A stretch of 54,625 nt of DNA, from positions 1-54,625 of the forward strand of contig NZ_KQ959516.1 of the NCBI RefSeq assembly GCF_001552785.1, written 5' to 3'. Positions 1 through 8,883 of this stretch are shown here, in pieces; the stretch's first letter is position 1; the number at the start of each line of letters is the position of its first letter. The translations under genes were made by a program, and so were the position numbers. The notes beneath the pieces were generated by a model, which saw only the letters and a program-made list of their open reading frames with translations, was not told the DNA's origin and did no database searches. This DNA is from Atopobium deltae. Lineage in GTDB: Bacteria; Actinomycetota; Coriobacteriia; Coriobacteriales; Atopobiaceae.

Positions 1-24
1 TCGTTTGGTGCGACACTCATTTTT

Positions 25-1794
25 CTACTTCCCATTTTTTCTTTTTTCGATTACAACGCTTCCAGATTTAAGCGTATTAACGATATATTTTCTTTCTGGT
101 TTTGTAAGAATACCAGCACCAGCTTCTATTGATAACGATTGTGGAGGGACGTCAGTTTTTAGCATATCTACGTATTCTGATGCTTGGCTTTTGTCGTCGG
201 ATTCTGTAACAAATATGACGTTGCCATAAAGATTATATTCAATTCTTCCTACTCGGCCTATAAGATTTTTAAAGTCTACAGGTGTCATTTTCCGAGTAAA
301 TACTTTTTTAGTAGTTATGAATAGGTTATCAGCTGGAAGATTTACGCCTTCGAGAAGTGTACTGGTACAGAATAGGGTCGTAATTTTACCAGCACGAAAT
401 AGATCTTCAATTCTCATACGAATTGAAGAAGGTAAATAGCCAATATGATAGGCAATACCTTTTTTGATGATGTCAGCTAGATAATAATCTTTGTGTACTG
501 ATGTAGCAATGTCATTAGATAAAGCATTGAGATCTTTATCGTTTAAGTCATTTAATCTATCAGCAAAATTTTTAGCAGTATTAACAGCTTTACTTTTAGA
601 ATTGAAATAAACGATAGTTTGATGATGATTAGGAATATCACTGGACCTATTTTGGGATTCAACTATTTGTAGGAAATCTTCAAGTTGTATATTTCCTGAT
701 TTGACATCCGCCACTTCGATAAGATTCTTGGAATGCTGATTATAAACAGACATTTTCTTGTTTTTAAGATCAAGCAAAAACTTAATCTGCGTTACAGGAG
801 AAAATGATGTTTTTAATGCCGATACATTTCCTTCACTTATATCGGTTAAAAGGCGTAAATATACTTCTGGATTAGGTATATTAGGGGATGCAAAGATAAA
901 CTTTGGTGGGCATTTACGTTTCCTAAGCATATCGACTACTTTATAATAAAAAGGAGCTCTGCCATTTTTAGCAGAGAGCTTATGTGCTTCGTCTATAAAT
1001 AGATAATCAATTTTAAGGTTTGGATGAGCGATGAGCATATATAAGAGACGCTCAGGCGTTAATACATAAACAAAATCATGCTTTCCTTCTAAGGCAATAT
1101 CTGTGGAGGCAGTTATTACTTTATAGTTTTTCTTACTTAGCAGATCATTCAAATCTTCTCGTATTATTTTTTGAGACACCTCGTTAATTAATGCCTTAGT
1201 TGGCACAATGATGGCAAAATTTTGATGACTTTCATTTGCTATCTGTTCCTTTATAAACATTCTCATCAAGAATGACTTACCCATGGATGTCGGCGCGGAA
1301 TAGCTAAAATATTTATCATTAAGATGGTCATAAGCTTGTTTTTGAGCAGAGAAAAAGTGCATATTTTCTTGGTAAGGAATGCGTAGATACGACTTTTTGT
1401 ATTCTTGGAATAGTCTACTTAGAATAAAAGGATCCTCAAAATCAGTGTTCAAAATGCTAATGCCACGTGTATTGTCAGTATTTGAAAATACTGAGCCACC
1501 AAACGCTTTAATGTTCTTATTATCAGGGAATAAGAAATTGAGTAGCACGATAATCTCTTGTGCCCACATTTTATGTTCTTCATATTTTGTTGCATGATTT
1601 GATTTTGAGAGTAAATCAGCAAATCGTAAAAGGTCATGGACTTCGGTGCTATTTAGTGAAGAGTTATCAATGGGCATGCTTAGCGTTTTTCGTGCGTAAG
1701 AGAGCAGTGCTTTTTTATATAACCTATTTAGATATTCGTTTTCACTAATTGAATTAAATATTATTTCGCCTAATTTAACTTTATCATCGCTCAT
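25..1794 (-). CDS. hamB: HamB-like DEAD/DEAH helicase of a Hachiman/AbpAB-type defence pair
   Basis: This is a 589-residue superfamily 2 helicase. Walker A (APTSMGKS) lies near residue 170, the DEAH box (FIDEAHKLS) near 268 and motif VI (NLIGRVGR) near 513. The start ATG has GAGGTG upstream. The gene begins 13 bases after the stop of a DUF1837/HamA-type gene, and that pairing is what identifies it; the helicase alone would be generic. In known Hachiman systems HamB is a DNA-translocating helicase that holds HamA and releases it on damaged or phage DNA. It is the last gene of a six-gene minus-strand operon, and its stop codon is inside the window, so the gene is complete. What follows it lies outside the window. 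The helicase call is secure and the HamB assignment rests on context. Confidence 0.85.
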   Translation of the reverse strand: MSDDKVKLGEIIFNSISENEYLNRLYKKALLSYARKTLSMPIDNSSLNSTEVHDLLRFADLLSKSNHATKYEEHKMWAQEIIVLLNFLFPDNKNIKAFGGSVFSNTDNTRGISILNTDFEDPFILSRLFQEYKKSYLRIPYQENMHFFSAQKQAYDHLNDKYFSYSAPTSMGKSFLMRMFIKEQIANESHQNFAIIVPTKALINEVSQKIIREDLNDLLSKKNYKVITASTDIALEGKHDFVYVLTPERLLYMLIAHPNLKIDYLFIDEAHKLSAKNGRAPFYYKVVDMLRKRKCPPKFIFASPNIPNPEVYLRLLTDISEGNVSALKTSFSPVTQIKFLLDLKNKKMSVYNQHSKNLIEVADVKSGNIQLEDFLQIVESQNRSSDIPNHHQTIVYFNSKSKAVNTAKNFADRLNDLNDKDLNALSNDIATSVHKDYYLADIIKKGIAYHIGYLPSSIRMRIEDLFRAGKITTLFCTSTLLEGVNLPADNLFITTKKVFTRKMTPVDFKNLIGRVGRIEYNLYGNVIFVTESDDKSQASEYVDMLKTDVPPQSLSIEAGAGILTKPERKYIVNTLKSGSVVIEKRKNGK

Positions 1795-1807: not shown

Positions 1808-2728
1808 TTACATTAGCAAATCTTCCATTATTTCTTTTTTATCTTTTTCAGCATCATTGAATGGGACGATATAAAAGTAAAAGGAGTGTGTGCCAAGATT
1901 AAATTGCTTTATTTTATTTGCAATGTAAGATGCATGCTGTTTAATATCGGTTTGCATTTTTGCGTCCATAGCTTTAAGAAAATCCAAATTAGATCTACTT
2001 TGAGGGTTTAATCCCAAGGAATACCCAAGAAAGACGCCATAAGCTATGTCGTTAGCCATCTTAGTATTGGCTGATGGAATCATAATATTTCTTATTTTTT
2101 CAGCAGTTTTAGTATCAAAAGCCTCTTCAAAAATATGACTATCTACAAGTATAGAATCAACTCTTTTTATATCATGCTCCACCTTCTCGATAGTAGTAAA
2201 AGCATGGTCAATAGCAGAACGTATGTCCCCAGCAATATCTGAAGAACCGAATATTGTTTGATAACAAGGGAATGGTGTGTTTTCTAGTGTTAGTAGGTGT
2301 ACTGCATCGCTTGATTTGCCAAACGAAGTAGAAGAGGCGTTCAGCTCTACTTTACTGAATAACTTTGGTGCTCCGAGAATATCTTCCAAAAAAGCATAGA
2401 GTAAAATTTCTCCTAGCTCATTTCCTGTTCCTCTAACATCAGCAGCTCCGTTTTTCTTCATTATTCTTAGAGCTTGTATGCCAATTGAGCGTGGATTGGA
2501 TGACTGGCTTAATTTTTCTACTTGTGCTCTGGAAAACACATATTCGCTTACAATATTTATTAGATAGTTGCTTAAACTTGCAAAATTAAACAGGTTGCTA
2601 CTTACATTAAGGTGGAAGAGGCGAAGCTGTTCCGGATTTACAAGCCCTAAGCTTTCGCTATGTTTTACTTCAGTAAATATAGAGCTAAGGTTATTCCCTT
2701 GATTTGAGAAATTGAGAATTGGACTCAT
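1808..2728 (-). CDS. hamA: HamA-like DUF1837 protein with a degenerate nuclease motif
   Basis: The 306-residue protein has the DUF1837 signature: a GNELGEILLY helix near residue 104, then LGAPKLFSKVEL, then SDAVHLL near 141. In the HamA family these build a PD-(D/E)xK nuclease fold, with the ExK normally in a strand reading like FGESK. Here the equivalent strand reads IFGSSDI (near 162), so Glu and Lys seem replaced by Ser and Asp while the earlier Asp is kept. I re-read the bases (ggt tct tca gat att on the coding strand) and found no frameshift. The start ATG follows a strong AAAGGAGG. hamB lies 13 bases downstream and the restriction gene 34 bases upstream. The protein may act as a binding or sensor subunit, use another site, or be inactive. 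Recalled family motifs are the basis; no alignment was run. Confidence 0.78.
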   Translation of the reverse strand: MSPILNFSNQGNNLSSIFTEVKHSESLGLVNPEQLRLFHLNVSSNLFNFASLSNYLINIVSEYVFSRAQVEKLSQSSNPRSIGIQALRIMKKNGAADVRGTGNELGEILLYAFLEDILGAPKLFSKVELNASSTSFGKSSDAVHLLTLENTPFPCYQTIFGSSDIAGDIRSAIDHAFTTIEKVEHDIKRVDSILVDSHIFEEAFDTKTAEKIRNIMIPSANTKMANDIAYGVFLGYSLGLNPQSRSNLDFLKAMDAKMQTDIKQHASYIANKIKQFNLGTHSFYFYIVPFNDAEKDKKEIMEDLLM

Positions 2729-2762: not shown

Positions 2763-5678
2763 CTATTCAAATTTTCCATCAGTATCAAATATATGAACTA
2801 GTTCTTCATCGGTCATAGCTTTAGATACTTTGTCACGCACAGAACTCATGGACATATCAAGCCTCTTAAAACGCACATTACCTGCTGCATCTTTACTCTT
2901 TCGAATCAATTCTATTCTGCCAACTCCTGGATTTTGTCTGGCGTATTCAGCGAAACCTTTGGCTTTACCAAGGTTGTCATTAAAAGCGGGGTTATGAGGC
3001 TCTAACACGTCAATGATGAATTCACCATCCGTAACGGGATCTTTACGAATAATAATAAAGTCAGGATATGTTGGTTTTATTTCGCCGTCTTGCTCGTATG
3101 GAATACATAGAGACCAAGAGCTCCTCGAAGGATTCCTTAACCAACATACAAAATCATCTCGTCTTGACTCTTCCTTTAAAACTCCCATTTCCCAATCATT
3201 AAGTTTAATTTTGGCGAATCCTTCGTCATTTACAAAAAGATGATCATAATAAACTTTGCCGTTAGCATCATCTGGAACTGTAATAGTTTCGGGAAGTCTT
3301 AGATTATGCTTGCTGATAATATCACCATCAGACACAATCCTATCGTATTGTTTTCTATAAGATTCAGTTAAGTTCACCATGTACCTGCGATATTTATCAT
3401 TTAAGGTATGATATTTCTCTTTTGCATAGTTATTTAGTTTTTCAATGCTTTCATCATCCGCTGCAAAAAGAATAACGTTGATTTTAAGCTCAGGAAGCCT
3501 ATCAAAGTCAAGGTATTTGTTAAGGTAGGCATTACCTACGCCTTCAGAGCCAAGACGTGTCTCTGCAACTCTAAATTGTCTATCAATATCTGCATCGGTT
3601 GTGAAGAAAGAAGTTTCATCTTGGCTTGTTTTAATACTTGTTCCAAACACATCAAATACTTTAGTTGCAAGCTTAAATTCCTTCGCTTTTTGCACAAGCT
3701 CATCATATATTCCTTGTGCCTTAAGTTCTTCAACATGGTTTGAAATAAGCTGAACAATGTCAGACTGCACACCTGACAAAGCAGCAGAATCTATATTTGC
3801 TTGTGTCAAAAGACGAACGAGAGCAAACATAGATTTAAGGTAGTCATTGATACGTATTCTTCTTACGTCATATGTAAGAAGTCCTGAATCATTAATTGCT
3901 CTTACGATTTTTTCTCGATCAAGGTCAAAGAATTTTGCTTCTATTGGAGCCTTATCACTCATATCATCGCTTGGCTTATTCCAAGTTACCCATGTGGTTG
4001 CTACTTTAGGGTCATTTACATATGTAGCATCTGTTTCTGCAGTAGAATCATTTATGTTTGCAGGTATATTATTTATTTTCCTTGGATTGTCCATTATAGA
4101 CATGGCTGTGGGTTGTAATTTTTCAGGCACATCTAATGTTTGGACATCTGAGGCCGTTTGGAGTTCCTTCGTATTTTCTTGTGCATGGTCAGATAAATTA
4201 GATGATGTATTAGATGAAGTGTGTGCAACAAATGCATCTAATATACCCTGTCCCAAAATCTGTTTTGAAACCGAAGGAGATGATTTTCTTGGACGGACTG
4301 TTAGTGTAACTAGTCTTTTGTTTTCAATTGGTTCCCCATATATATCAGTGGGAATATTTCCACCTTCATCCGATTGCAATGCACTAATAACATCTTCCAC
4401 GGTATCTTTTTCGAAGAATGGCAAAAATAAGTGTACATCATTTAAGGTGTCATCTACCTGCACATGCATTTGCATAGGTGTTCTTACCATACGTCCTAAA
4501 AGCTGTGCAATATACGTTGCGTCTTTAGCGTGCCTAAAGCTCATCATGGTTTCGGCTCTAGGGCAATCCCATCCAGTTGAAAGGTTTTCTTTGAAAAATA
4601 CAACCTTAATTTTCTTATTATCTTGGATTCTGGATGGCTCTTCGTAAGGAACTGATAGGCCTGCTATGGTGATCGTTGAATCCGTATCTCCAAAAGTGTG
4701 GACAACTTCTCCTTCGGCAAATTTAATACCCGTACGCTCCTCTATCTTATGAAGACATTCATCTAAATCTGTAGCAGATTTTTGAGAGGCACTACCGTTT
4801 TCTACTTGAACTACAAAAATCGGATTTACATATGCATAGTGCTGCTCAAAACAGTACTGTGACCAGTGATCCCACTTGTTTTTCCAATCATCAGCAGCTG
4901 CTTGTAAAACAGCCATTGCTTTATTAACAGAGGATTCTTCAGAGTATGAAATAACAATACGATCTTTTAGAAGACCTGAAGCTCTAACTTCATCAGGAGA
5001 AACAACAACTTTTTGTATAGTGGAAGAAGTTTCCTCAACTAGTTTATTAAAACGTTCTGATGTTGCTGACATGCCAATAACGACAGGCATAGGTACAAGA
5101 TTGTCATCTTCGCTACCTTTTATAAACTTTTGCATAATTGTTGTAGCTTTAGCAGCCGCTTTATCTTTCATTCCGCGATGTGCTTCGTCAATGATAAAGT
5201 ACAGGCGATCAGATTTTTCATAAACGGTATTACCTAATGTTTCCCAAATGTTATAGGTACGATTGTCACCCATTTTGGTAAGATTCTTATCCTTACCAAT
5301 TTTTTGAGTGTTTAAGAAATAAATATGCCCGTCCTCTAAGAACTCTTTATCAAAGTTTTCATCAGTGATAGTGACACATTGACCAAGTCGTATTTTATCC
5401 GCTTTAGTGTCAATCTTTAATTTCGATTGCTCGTTAAGCTCAGGGGAATCAGATAACCAAACAAAGATTGCGTCAGGCTGTTCAGGATAGCTTTCATCAC
5501 CAAACAAAATGTTTTCAATAAAAGCAGTCATAATGATTGTTTTACCTGCACCTGTTGGGGCAGTAAAAGAAATTACTTGCGGTGTATGTGTTCTTTGATA
5601 TGCGCCTAGTGCTTCTGTCGTTTTCATACGGAGATTCCTGAGTGCTATTTCCTGGAATGGGAATAATGATACTTTCAT
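2763..5678 (-). CDS. res: Type III restriction enzyme, Res (helicase-endonuclease) subunit
   Basis: The 971-residue protein has an N-terminal SF2 helicase core: Walker A (APTGAGKT) at residues 41-48, DEAH (FIIDEAHRGM) near 166, a TGWDCPRAE helicase motif near 369 and LLGRMVRTP (motif VI) near 394. The C-terminal end carries a nuclease-like stretch, YPDFIIIRKD near 873 followed by FIIDVLEPH. With Mod it would form the type III complex that translocates between two head-to-head unmethylated sites and cuts near one of them. GGGGAGG precedes the ATG and overlaps the mod stop region (3-base gap), so the two are translationally linked. The acidic strand has DVL rather than ExK, a form I recall from many homologues of this subgroup, so I do not read it as inactivation. 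Confidence 0.93.
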   Translation of the reverse strand: MKVSLFPFQEIALRNLRMKTTEALGAYQRTHTPQVISFTAPTGAGKTIIMTAFIENILFGDESYPEQPDAIFVWLSDSPELNEQSKLKIDTKADKIRLGQCVTITDENFDKEFLEDGHIYFLNTQKIGKDKNLTKMGDNRTYNIWETLGNTVYEKSDRLYFIIDEAHRGMKDKAAAKATTIMQKFIKGSEDDNLVPMPVVIGMSATSERFNKLVEETSSTIQKVVVSPDEVRASGLLKDRIVISYSEESSVNKAMAVLQAAADDWKNKWDHWSQYCFEQHYAYVNPIFVVQVENGSASQKSATDLDECLHKIEERTGIKFAEGEVVHTFGDTDSTITIAGLSVPYEEPSRIQDNKKIKVVFFKENLSTGWDCPRAETMMSFRHAKDATYIAQLLGRMVRTPMQMHVQVDDTLNDVHLFLPFFEKDTVEDVISALQSDEGGNIPTDIYGEPIENKRLVTLTVRPRKSSPSVSKQILGQGILDAFVAHTSSNTSSNLSDHAQENTKELQTASDVQTLDVPEKLQPTAMSIMDNPRKINNIPANINDSTAETDATYVNDPKVATTWVTWNKPSDDMSDKAPIEAKFFDLDREKIVRAINDSGLLTYDVRRIRINDYLKSMFALVRLLTQANIDSAALSGVQSDIVQLISNHVEELKAQGIYDELVQKAKEFKLATKVFDVFGTSIKTSQDETSFFTTDADIDRQFRVAETRLGSEGVGNAYLNKYLDFDRLPELKINVILFAADDESIEKLNNYAKEKYHTLNDKYRRYMVNLTESYRKQYDRIVSDGDIISKHNLRLPETITVPDDANGKVYYDHLFVNDEGFAKIKLNDWEMGVLKEESRRDDFVCWLRNPSRSSWSLCIPYEQDGEIKPTYPDFIIIRKDPVTDGEFIIDVLEPHNPAFNDNLGKAKGFAEYARQNPGVGRIELIRKSKDAAGNVRFKRLDMSMSSVRDKVSKAMTDEELVHIFDTDGKFE

Positions 5679-5681
5679 GCT

Positions 5682-7784
5682 TTACCTCCCCGTATTAATA
5701 CGAAAGTTATCCAAATAATCGCGGTATAGTTGATAGGATTTTTTGATCGAAAGATGAGAGATCATTTCACGATAACCGCTTGTAGAATCAGTGACGATAA
5801 AAACTTGTTTTATTCTATCCTCATCATTAACTTTTGTCATAAACTCTGGGAAAGCATGCTCGTCAATCAGCACTGCAAAAGCGTTTTGTGGCAAAATCAG
5901 CATAGGAGGCAACGATTCTTCTTCGAGCTTAGGACATAAGCCAACACAACCTGTTTTCATCCAAAGAACAGGCAAGAGTTCTTTGAACTGTCTACCAAGC
6001 GCAACAGCGTTCTTATCTAAGAAGCCAAGCTTGAAAAATGCAGCATTCGCTTTGAAACCATCTGTCATTGCTCGTTCACTATCAAGATACGTGCCTTTAA
6101 GTGGATTACCATTTATGTCTTCGCCTTTAATCGAGCAAACAGTACGTAGCCACGTTACATAATGAGCAATACCAAGCCGCTCCCATTCTGGATCTCCAGG
6201 CTTGAAACCGTCTTTTTTGAGCTTTTTGGCTTCTTCATCCGAAACTTCATTATTGGTGACCATAATACAACGGCGATGTCCGCCATCTTCAGCATTGAGT
6301 AGGTTTACAGCGTGAAGCGTTGTGCCAGAACCTGCAAAGAAGTCGAGGATGAGGGCGTTCTGTTTGTTGGCAACAAAGAAACGAATAGCGTCATGCACAG
6401 CGTAGAGGGATTTTGGGAAAGAGAACAATTTAGTTCCGAAAATTTTATTTAATAAATTAGAACCATTTCTTGACGCATCATGAGATGGTATTTGCCATGC
6501 CGTACCTGGGACAAAATTTGGAATATATGAATCCTCATTAACAATGATAGAGCCATCTGGATTATGGCCGATGATAGGGAATAATCCATCTTCTACTTTT
6601 TTCTGTTCACCTTTTTTCAAGTAATAAATTGTTGTGTTTTCAGCACGATAGCTTTTAATCTGTACATAGCCTTTTTGTAAAAGGTTTCGCAGCATTAAAA
6701 AGCTGACTTGCCACCTGCCTTCTTTACCATCACTTCGAATTGGCCAAACTGCAACACAATCGTTTGGAATATCTATTTCACTTCTATTGTTCCCAAAGTA
6801 CGTTTCACCAATAGAATGAATAATTGATGTTTTATCATCAATTTTTTTAACAAATATTGGGTAAAACAAATTCGGAGAGTCTGTACGTAATACATCAGTT
6901 CCAGTACGTATTAGGGAATTCCAATGCAATTTACCTTTTACTGTTGTTTGAACAGCACCATTCCATTCTTTTTCTAGTTGTAATTTTTGAGGACCAGCTT
7001 CACCTAAAAATACGAAGAATATGTATTCATCCGTGCGACCAAACTCTTTATCACGTGCGACTGCTGCTGGGTTGATAACACTACTCACCATCTGCATTCT
7101 TGCATCAGGGAACAGCTCTTCCAACAAGCACCCCAAATGCAAATACTCTTTTTCATCAATAGTCACAATTAACACAGAGTCAGCTGGATTAAGGAGCTTT
7201 TTAGCCAGCTTTAGACGTTTTTCCATCATAGACAGCCATTTGCTATGACGGTACGCATCAGAAGAATCCACGTAATCGTTGTTATACTTCCAGTCCTTTG
7301 CTCCCGTGTTATAAGGAGGATCGATATATATGCAATCCACTTTACCGGCATAAAGGTATTCTAAAAGCTGAAGTGCGTGGTAGTTGTCTGCTTCAATAAG
7401 CGTATGCCAAAGACTGCTATCCGGTGCGTTTTCGATGCTATCAACCGGCTTTAAGTAAGGGTAAATTGCCTCACCAAATTCAGCAAGAGATACAAGAGAA
7501 TCAACGGTGAATTCTGTAGTCTCTTTCGTCTGAGTGTTCACACAAATTGCTTGATTATCGTTTATAGCCTTAACGACATATACATTATTAATCTTTTTAT
7601 CTTTAAGAGCTACTTTGCTACCAACATGAACAGGAACATCATAGAGTGCGGTACATTCAGGCACATGGTCTTCAAAAACAAGACCGAATTTTTTCTGCTT
7701 AGATAGCTTATCAACTTCAGCTTTAATGCGCTCGCGCAGCTCACGATCATCTATTTGATTGATCAAATCGTTAATTGCAGCCAT
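5682..7784 (-). CDS. mod: Type III DNA adenine methyltransferase, Mod subunit
   Basis: The 700-residue protein has the beta-class adenine methyltransferase order. The catalytic motif IDPPYNTGA lies near residue 155, a long variable region that should contain the target-recognition domain follows, and the AdoMet-binding LDFFAGSGTT comes late, near 480. It would methylate adenine in an asymmetric site and provide both sequence recognition and self-protection for the neighbouring Res. Its N-terminus overlaps the end of the helix-turn-helix gene by 14 bases and has GAGGG upstream, so translation is probably coupled. I saw no simple-sequence tract of the kind that makes phase-variable mod genes. 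The recognition sequence cannot be read from the protein. Confidence 0.94.
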   Translation of the reverse strand: MAAINDLINQIDDRELRERIKAEVDKLSKQKKFGLVFEDHVPECTALYDVPVHVGSKVALKDKKINNVYVVKAINDNQAICVNTQTKETTEFTVDSLVSLAEFGEAIYPYLKPVDSIENAPDSSLWHTLIEADNYHALQLLEYLYAGKVDCIYIDPPYNTGAKDWKYNNDYVDSSDAYRHSKWLSMMEKRLKLAKKLLNPADSVLIVTIDEKEYLHLGCLLEELFPDARMQMVSSVINPAAVARDKEFGRTDEYIFFVFLGEAGPQKLQLEKEWNGAVQTTVKGKLHWNSLIRTGTDVLRTDSPNLFYPIFVKKIDDKTSIIHSIGETYFGNNRSEIDIPNDCVAVWPIRSDGKEGRWQVSFLMLRNLLQKGYVQIKSYRAENTTIYYLKKGEQKKVEDGLFPIIGHNPDGSIIVNEDSYIPNFVPGTAWQIPSHDASRNGSNLLNKIFGTKLFSFPKSLYAVHDAIRFFVANKQNALILDFFAGSGTTLHAVNLLNAEDGGHRRCIMVTNNEVSDEEAKKLKKDGFKPGDPEWERLGIAHYVTWLRTVCSIKGEDINGNPLKGTYLDSERAMTDGFKANAAFFKLGFLDKNAVALGRQFKELLPVLWMKTGCVGLCPKLEEESLPPMLILPQNAFAVLIDEHAFPEFMTKVNDEDRIKQVFIVTDSTSGYREMISHLSIKKSYQLYRDYLDNFRINTGR

Positions 7785-8055
7785 TGCTATCCCTCACTTT
7801 TGCCTCATTGCTTTGAGCGAGGCTTTCTATACAATCTAATTTTACTTCTTCATGGTCTTTTTCGCTCTCATCATCGCAAGCACCACCTGATCTAATCCAC
7901 TCATCGACTTCAGATAGCTTAAATTTCCATAATCTTCCAACCTTATAAGCAGGCATTTCTCGTTTGTTTATCCACTGTAGGATCGTTTCGCGTCCGACAC
8001 CTAAATAAGCTTGAACATCTTTTAGGTTTGTCCACTTTTCTATTTTGTTATTCAT
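7771..8055 (-). CDS. Helix-turn-helix (excisionase/MerR-like) DNA-binding protein
   Basis: The 94-residue protein opens with a classic HTH_17/excisionase domain (residues 6-58): the DVQAYLGVGRETILQWI helices, then a basic wing (MPAYKVGRLWKFKLSEVDEW). The acidic tail (DDESEKDHEEVKLD) is unlike DNA-binding surfaces and may contact a partner. The ATG follows GGAGG. The gene sits between an unknown Ig-fold protein gene and mod, overlapping mod. Such proteins commonly accompany type III systems and may autoregulate the operon; the phased AAGTCCA boxes upstream of the operon would be the obvious target. That link is inference. Confidence 0.85.
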   Translation of the reverse strand: MNNKIEKWTNLKDVQAYLGVGRETILQWINKREMPAYKVGRLWKFKLSEVDEWIRSGGACDDESEKDHEEVKLDCIESLAQSNEAKVRDSNGCN

Positions 8056-8070: not shown

Positions 8071-8883
8071 TTATGATGGAAAAGAAATTCTTAAGCGTAT
8101 ATCGAATATGCTTCTATTTGGAAAGCAATTGTTACCATTGGAATCAATCATTTCAAAATGACAACAAAAATCTCCTTCAGATCCTCGAGTTTCCATTTCT
8201 ATCTCTTTTGTAAAATTTTGTTGTGGCTCAATATTCGGAATAGCTATTTCACATTCTGTCCTTGGAATAGGGCAGGATGTTTTTTCTTTTATAAAAACTA
8301 ATTTCCGGTTTAGCCACGTTACTGAACCAATATTTTGAATATCGAATTTAACTTTTATTATCTCGTATGTGTTTGCTTCTATCCAATTTATATTTGAATA
8401 ATCATTAACTGCATCACCAGGGTATAGAGGCATGTATTTACTAAAATCAGATTCCTCTTGATCATTGGCTATTCTTTGGTATTCATTCCACACAATATTT
8501 TCTACTTCGCTGCCATCGCTAGTAAAAATCAGCTCATATTGACGAGCAATAGCTTGGGCTAAAAAGTCTTTATTGGGTTCTATCGAGCTTGGAAAGCCAA
8601 AGGCTGAAGCTACGTCTTGAATTTTATCGTCTTGCATGTGGCTGGATAGAAATGTAGTAACTTCCTTAATAGGAAAAGGGCTTACAACAGAACGTTTCAT
8701 ATCAATAGTGAGGGGCCTAATTCCCTTAAAAATTTTTATTTCATAATCACGCGGTGTTTGTGTGTTTTTAGGAAAAAACTTACTCCCCATGGCATTGAAT
8801 AAGCTAGCTATGAAGAAACCTTGATTATTGATTTTAGGTTTACAACTTTTCTGAACAGGTTCACTGCAGGATGAAAATTCCAT
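8071..8883 (-). CDS. Defence-operon leading protein with C-terminal NBR1-like Ig fold
   Basis: I do not recognise the 270-residue protein as a whole. Its C-terminal 100 residues resemble the NBR1-type Ig-like domain: VKFDIQNIGSVTWLNRKL near 176, then an IPNIEPQQNF turn and alternating beta strands to the end. The middle (residues 70-150) is predicted helical, with FLSSHMQDDKIQDVASAFGF and LAQAIARQYELIFTSDG, and resembles small helical adaptor domains; no catalytic motif stands out. No signal peptide or membrane segment is visible. It is the first gene of the operon, 15 bases before the helix-turn-helix gene, so it is probably co-expressed with the restriction and HamAB genes. It could be a sensor or adaptor. 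Confidence 0.6.
   Translation of the reverse strand: MEFSSCSEPVQKSCKPKINNQGFFIASLFNAMGSKFFPKNTQTPRDYEIKIFKGIRPLTIDMKRSVVSPFPIKEVTTFLSSHMQDDKIQDVASAFGFPSSIEPNKDFLAQAIARQYELIFTSDGSEVENIVWNEYQRIANDQEESDFSKYMPLYPGDAVNDYSNINWIEANTYEIIKVKFDIQNIGSVTWLNRKLVFIKEKTSCPIPRTECEIAIPNIEPQQNFTKEIEMETRGSEGDFCCHFEMIDSNGNNCFPNRSIFDIRLRISFPS

Follow-up and report, generated by a model that had tools for sequence, protein, structure and literature searches.

What a HamA protein without a nuclease site does in a restriction-modification operon is the question raised by a locus of Atopobium deltae (GCF_001552785.1, contig NZ_KQ959516.1, positions 1 to 54,625 of the forward strand; we call this whole stretch of 54,625 nucleotides the window). 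The minus-strand gene at 1808..2728 encodes a HamA/DUF1837 protein of 306 residues, referred to here as dHamA (dead HamA), and its open reading frame includes YQTIFGSSDIAGDIRSAIDHAF. A sequence-only reading had described it as a HamA-type protein lacking the ExK half of its nuclease site, and had proposed a specialised, nuclease-free HamA that works through the neighbouring Res nuclease. In HamA of E. coli ECOR31 the motif is formed by E138 and K140, and mutating both abolishes defence (PMC12278908).

The protein matches the HamA families of Pfam (E=2e-39) and PADLOC (PDLC00162, E=6e-135). Its strand reads FGSSD where nuclease-active HamA proteins have FGExK, which bears out the reported loss. 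We aligned 45 HamA proteins, 37 from the dHamA clade and eight active-type (GExK) controls. S162 (window 2243-2245) and D164 (2237-2239; S162-S163-D164 spans 2237-2245) occupy the Glu and Lys positions, and D141 (2306-2308), the D of D-ExK, is retained. Homologues with the same change turned up clade-wide: position 162 is S, T, A or K in all 37 members and Glu in none, position 164 is Lys in a single member (L033) and otherwise D, N, S, H, E, R or Q, and D141 is kept in 20, substituted in 15 and gapped in two. All eight controls have D, E and K. The exceptional member, L033 (8528-9976), reads FGASK, with the Lys present and the Glu absent. An intact ExK elsewhere in the protein had been named as one result that would overturn the claim, and no conserved one appears in the alignment; E20-V-K22, the only other ExK in dHamA, was rejected as a displaced site, its Lys being kept in only 7 of the 37. 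Sequencing error is excluded as the source, the loss recurring in A. minutum (95% identical) and in unrelated phage contigs.

A structure model had been suggested as a further check. The AlphaFold2 model from 24 relatives (mean pLDDT 84, pTM 0.87) puts S162 and D164 where a PD-(D/E)xK core would have them, in strand 155-166, which comes after helix 103-118 and strand 142-148. Its best matches among solved structures are Hachiman HamA proteins, 8zue_A (Z 16.5, 263 residues, rmsd 4.2) and 8vx9_A (Z 13.0, 227 residues, rmsd 4.2), and matches outside Hachiman begin at Z 5.2. The dN/dS of 0.13 against A. minutum indicates purifying selection, and the clade forms one side of a branch of the HamB tree with support 96/92. 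Many of the loci have a GGAGG-like ribosome site near the HamA start. As judged from alignment and model, the HamA nuclease site is lost across the whole clade, with the predicted fold and the HamB partner kept.

That partner is an SF2 helicase (PADLOC HamB, E=3e-247) whose motifs are invariant in relatives. The neighbouring genes had been described as intact, which is wrong for this one: the HamB reading frame breaks off near codon 580, where the contig ends, so that the window has only the first ~580 codons, followed by a short read-through (25..1794, minus strand) into the terminus of an IS element (1..33, no strand assigned). In this strain hamB has probably been interrupted by that element, since the same 33 bases also terminate contigs C3 (65524-65540) and C4 (99018-99034) of the genome and the remainder of HamB starts at the end of contig C24 (G000:C24:16679-17590). 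The HamB arm is therefore probably off here. The ends of the window and C24 overlap by 15 bases of hamB, with short, partly inverted sequences beyond. In A. minutum DSM 20586 HamB is intact, with 883 aa. In that strain Mod is split in two frames (L002 2992-5047) and its middle part, the target recognition region, is unlike that of the window, so Mod specificity seems to have been swapped. Frame breaks also occur on some phage contigs, in BrIG (L016 3914-4728), HsdR (L019 6166-9021) and HamB (L027 10001-12733), and reflect decay or assembly errors.

Upstream of dHamA, also on the minus strand, lie Res, a type III-like restriction subunit of 971 aa (2763..5678), and Mod, a type III methyltransferase of 700 aa (5682..7784). 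Mod has intact DPPY and FAGSG motifs, Res has intact Walker A and DEAH motifs, and the pair scores as type III restriction-modification (R-M) with a Mod and a Res helicase (PADLOC MTase_III, E=4e-203; Pfam ResIII, E=3e-15). The nuclease motif of Res is non-canonical: its C-terminal 200 aa read PDF...IIDVLEPH where (D/E)xK is expected, as does the Res of L016, while other R subunits retain a canonical motif (ETKGE in a phage Res, ELK or EFK in HsdR copies). The window Res may thus not be a standard nuclease, to judge by this motif. A PDB sequence search returned no solved homologue of Res, and we regard an EcoRV Pfam match (E=0.007, below cut-off) as noise. Next come an excisionase/MAD1-like HTH protein of 94 aa (7771..8055, minus strand) and BrIG, a protein of 270 aa (8071..8883, minus strand) with a helical N-terminal domain and an N_BRCA1_IG/FW-type Ig fold. 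The genes are tightly packed, with a 14-base overlap of HTH and Mod and gaps of 3 (Mod-Res), 34 (Res-HamA) and 13 bases (HamA-HamB).

Related loci came from genomes and from IMG/VR, which we scanned with profiles of HamB and of BrIG. The same order recurs in them: BrIG, the first gene of what we call the platform, then HTH, which forms the left border of a slot, then R-M, HamA and HamB. The HTH gene adjoins BrIG in every BrIG locus found, and both always accompany a non-fused dHamA-HamB pair. The dHamA system is rare in searches of the family, class and phylum, and a scan of genome contigs with the single protein gave three loci only. An R-M fills the HTH-HamA slot on all but three of the 25 contigs that carry a non-fused HamA (22/25), or in 16 of 19 HamA clusters at 90% identity, one of the 19 being L086, with a fused HamA in the same operon. 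None of the eight GExK controls has R-M in that place (0/7 with L013 and L014 counted once). The difference is significant by Fisher's test (p = 1.2e-5 for contigs, 1.8e-4 for clusters), although contigs are not fully independent and the eight-locus control set is small, a viral scan with a GExK HamA query having given no relative. One control has an HsdM gene about 5 kb away, and L084 (1960-14792) has a canonical GExK HamAB next to BREX genes of the BrxC/D type.

All the filled slots that we saw contain R-M, always in the same orientation and within a single operon; none contains a different kind of defence gene. The R subunits fall into five families less than 40% identical to one another, two of type III kind (window and L016; L011) and three of type I kind. 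Two pairs of loci are informative. Between L021 and L022 the identities are 88% for BrIG, 95% for HTH, 96% for HamA and 98% for HamB, against 26% for HsdM and 27% for HsdR; between L026 and L038 they are 74%, 93%, 99% and 99%, against 26% and 28%. DNA homology of L021 and L022 ends 18 bases before the HTH stop and restarts 9 bases after the HsdR stop, and in L026 and L038 the borders are similar (13 and 14 bases). The R-M cassette, on these comparisons, is exchangeable and swapped at gene-precise borders. No repeats that might act as recombination sites were found at the cassette borders; the 39-base border matches in L030, L058 and L085 carry no weight, because in these loci the two stretches compared overlap.

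Those three loci carry BrIG, HTH, HamA and HamB with nothing between HTH and HamA, and in the HamB tree they do not belong to the main R-M clade. In L030 and L058 the contig ends at or just after HamB. L085 has both flanks, and no R-M was recognised in them. A neighbouring R-M is therefore not strictly needed. The operon adjoins phage DNA polymerase A and DUF2800 genes (L049 4521-8424, L085 13147-16773), a neighbourhood that is likely to be a defence cargo site of temperate phages. GIY-YIG-like/DUF4357 genes occur near HamB in five loci (L094 5113-6048; L085 5786-6712; L086 13045-13977, where the gene overlaps the HamB stop; L004 15889-16758; L087 19750-19998). As the missing nuclease they were rejected, being absent from most loci with enough flank.

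In fused relatives HamA is 480-507 aa long, with an N-terminal helical-looking domain that has no Pfam match. R-M genes lie near many of these too: LlaJI type (L012), type I (L031, L035), type III with a transposase between (L087), MvaI/BcnI (L033), DpnII (L004) and an Eco57I-type methyltransferase (L034, L039). A rule that only NTP-driven R-M accompanies dHamA holds in the slot but fails near fused dHamA (DpnII in L004, MvaI/BcnI in L033). An hhalign comparison of the N-terminal domains of BrIG and of fused dHamA (P 1.3e-4, probability 54%; P 0.1-0.56 for five control profiles) is weakly suggestive of a relationship between the two. The Ig fold of BrIG has the FW domains of human NBR1 (4ole) and ILRUN (6vhi) among its best solved matches, and several BrIG members pass the Pfam N_BRCA1_IG cut-off of 28 bits; the window copy falls below it at 19.8. 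We call BrIG a putative adaptor because the FW domain of Nbr1 binds a cargo protein, Ams1 (PMC9233695).

The locus shares with Hachiman of E. coli ECOR31 (PMC12278908) the HamA/DUF1837 domain and fold and an adjacent Ski2-like SF2 helicase, HamB, with intact motifs (IS-interrupted in this strain), as a conserved pair. The D-ExK site is incomplete, and BrIG, HTH and R-M genes are added to the operon. In Hachiman, DNA damage triggers degradation of all DNA. Because of the lost ExK residues we class the locus, on its sequence, as a Hachiman-derived variant and not a canonical member. AbpAB of E. coli also pairs a HamA domain without catalytic residues with a helicase (PMC10732053, PMC12278908). 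The dead HamA domain of AbpA (PMC12278908), however, is joined to an N-terminal Cap4-type nuclease, whereas dHamA is a HamA domain only, with nothing fused. HamMAB, the nuclease-protease Hachiman (PMC12799240), likewise retains a dHamA as a non-nuclease part. There it is required for effector activation, its removal abolishes toxicity and a dimerisation domain can substitute for it, and its role is taken to be oligomerisation (PMC12799240). HamMAB has a trypsin-like fusion and a metallo-beta-lactamase nuclease gene; the six genes that we scanned contain no protease fused to dHamA and no upstream metallo-beta-lactamase nuclease, and R-M is present instead. The R-M genes themselves resemble ordinary type III and type I systems in their Mod-Res or HsdM-S-R genes with methyltransferase and ATPase motifs, but sit in a slot of the dHamA-HamB operon and are exchanged as a cassette. 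MADS, the methylation-associated defense system, also has a small HTH gene ahead of a DNA methyltransferase. The window HTH, however, scores 65 bits, below the MAD1 cut-off of 80, and no other MADS gene reached a convincing score in the operon.

From the lost site, the kept fold and HamB, the conserved neighbours and the exchanged R-M we infer a mechanism that we favour, while giving it somewhat short of an even chance: a Hachiman-derived defence platform, BrIG-HTH-[R-M cassette]-dHamA-HamB, in which dHamA would scaffold a HamB sensor coupled through DNA to whichever R-M is plugged in. HamB-dHamA would remain an ATP-driven sensor of aberrant DNA such as ends and single strands, with dHamA as a scaffold or relay, not a nuclease, by analogy with the dHamA of HamMAB only. 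The plugged-in R-M would provide self marking by methylation and DNA cutting, and its cuts and stalled intermediates might load HamB, with no dedicated contact between dHamA and one R subunit. BrIG, a putative FW/Ig-fold adaptor with a helical domain weakly similar to that of the fused sister proteins, is the best candidate to relay the HamB-dHamA signal; HTH is the likely regulator. The three loci with the core and an empty slot count against this platform. A broader proposal is possible, if doubtful: BrIG-HTH-dHamA-HamB may be a general socket for restriction systems, a disarmed-Hachiman sensor of DNA state that accepts any NTP-driven R-M cassette and would turn single-hit restriction into a sensor-gated response through the FW-domain adaptor.

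The empty slots speak for a rival in which R-M and the dHamA-HamB core are independent defence modules, co-inherited in a phage cargo hot spot, with dHamA-HamB defending alone through HamB or BrIG and no crosstalk with R-M. Cassette exchange beside an unchanged HamAB shows no dependence on one R-M, and the loci checked adjoin the same phage genes. We nevertheless consider simple cargo rather unlikely: the filled slots seen hold R-M every time, in one orientation inside one operon, fused dHamA likewise lies near R-M, and GExK HamA controls have none in their operon. The platform could alternatively guard the restriction system, with R-M activity silencing dHamA-HamB-BrIG until phage anti-restriction or loss of R-M releases it. 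The anticodon nuclease PrrC is kept silent by the type I R-M to which it is linked, until an anti-restriction factor turns it on (PMC2610378); the position beside R-M resembles that of PrrC, and the R-M types in the slot are the NTP-driven types I and III. PrrC, however, is tied to one R-M and a guard here would have to contact each unrelated one; L085 retains the core with an empty slot, and neither BrIG nor HTH has a recognisable toxic domain. Guarding is in our view clearly improbable.

Of the original proposal, a specialised HamA without a nuclease site, conserved in that state and genetically linked to a restriction enzyme, has held up; a dedicated Res partner has not. Docking of dHamA onto the neighbouring restriction subunit to license its nuclease would suit a HamA without its own site and a Res immediately upstream in one operon. 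Five unrelated R-subunit families nevertheless occur, and HamA proteins 96-99% identical have neighbouring R subunits that are 27-28% alike, which makes a contact of HamA with a dedicated Res unlikely; with the non-canonical Res site of the window and the three empty slots, docking becomes a poor prospect. That dHamA is still a nuclease, using D141, kept here and in 20 of 37, with a shifted or substitute residue in its intact fold, is scarcely credible, given the 17 members without D141, the free variation at position 164 (Lys included) and the lack of another conserved ExK.

The Hachiman structure paper called the retention of a dead HamA by AbpAB enigmatic (PMC12278908). PADLOC profiles already exist for these HamA and HamB proteins; what we believe to be new is the combination of a lost active site with a composite operon. 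Full-text literature searches, whose coverage leaves many subscription papers and preprints outside, turned up no account of a dead HamA embedded among R-M genes, nor of N_BRCA1_IG in defence systems of bacteria, and our results suggest a modular defence platform with swappable R-M that is absent from the searchable papers. The loci provide a large natural set of unfused dead HamA proteins, under selection beside exchangeable restriction enzymes, and make a non-nuclease role for HamA testable with natural cassette swaps as controls. They also connect an FW domain of the NBR1 type with defence in bacteria, and what annotation software would report at such loci as 'Hachiman + R-M' may be a single composite system.
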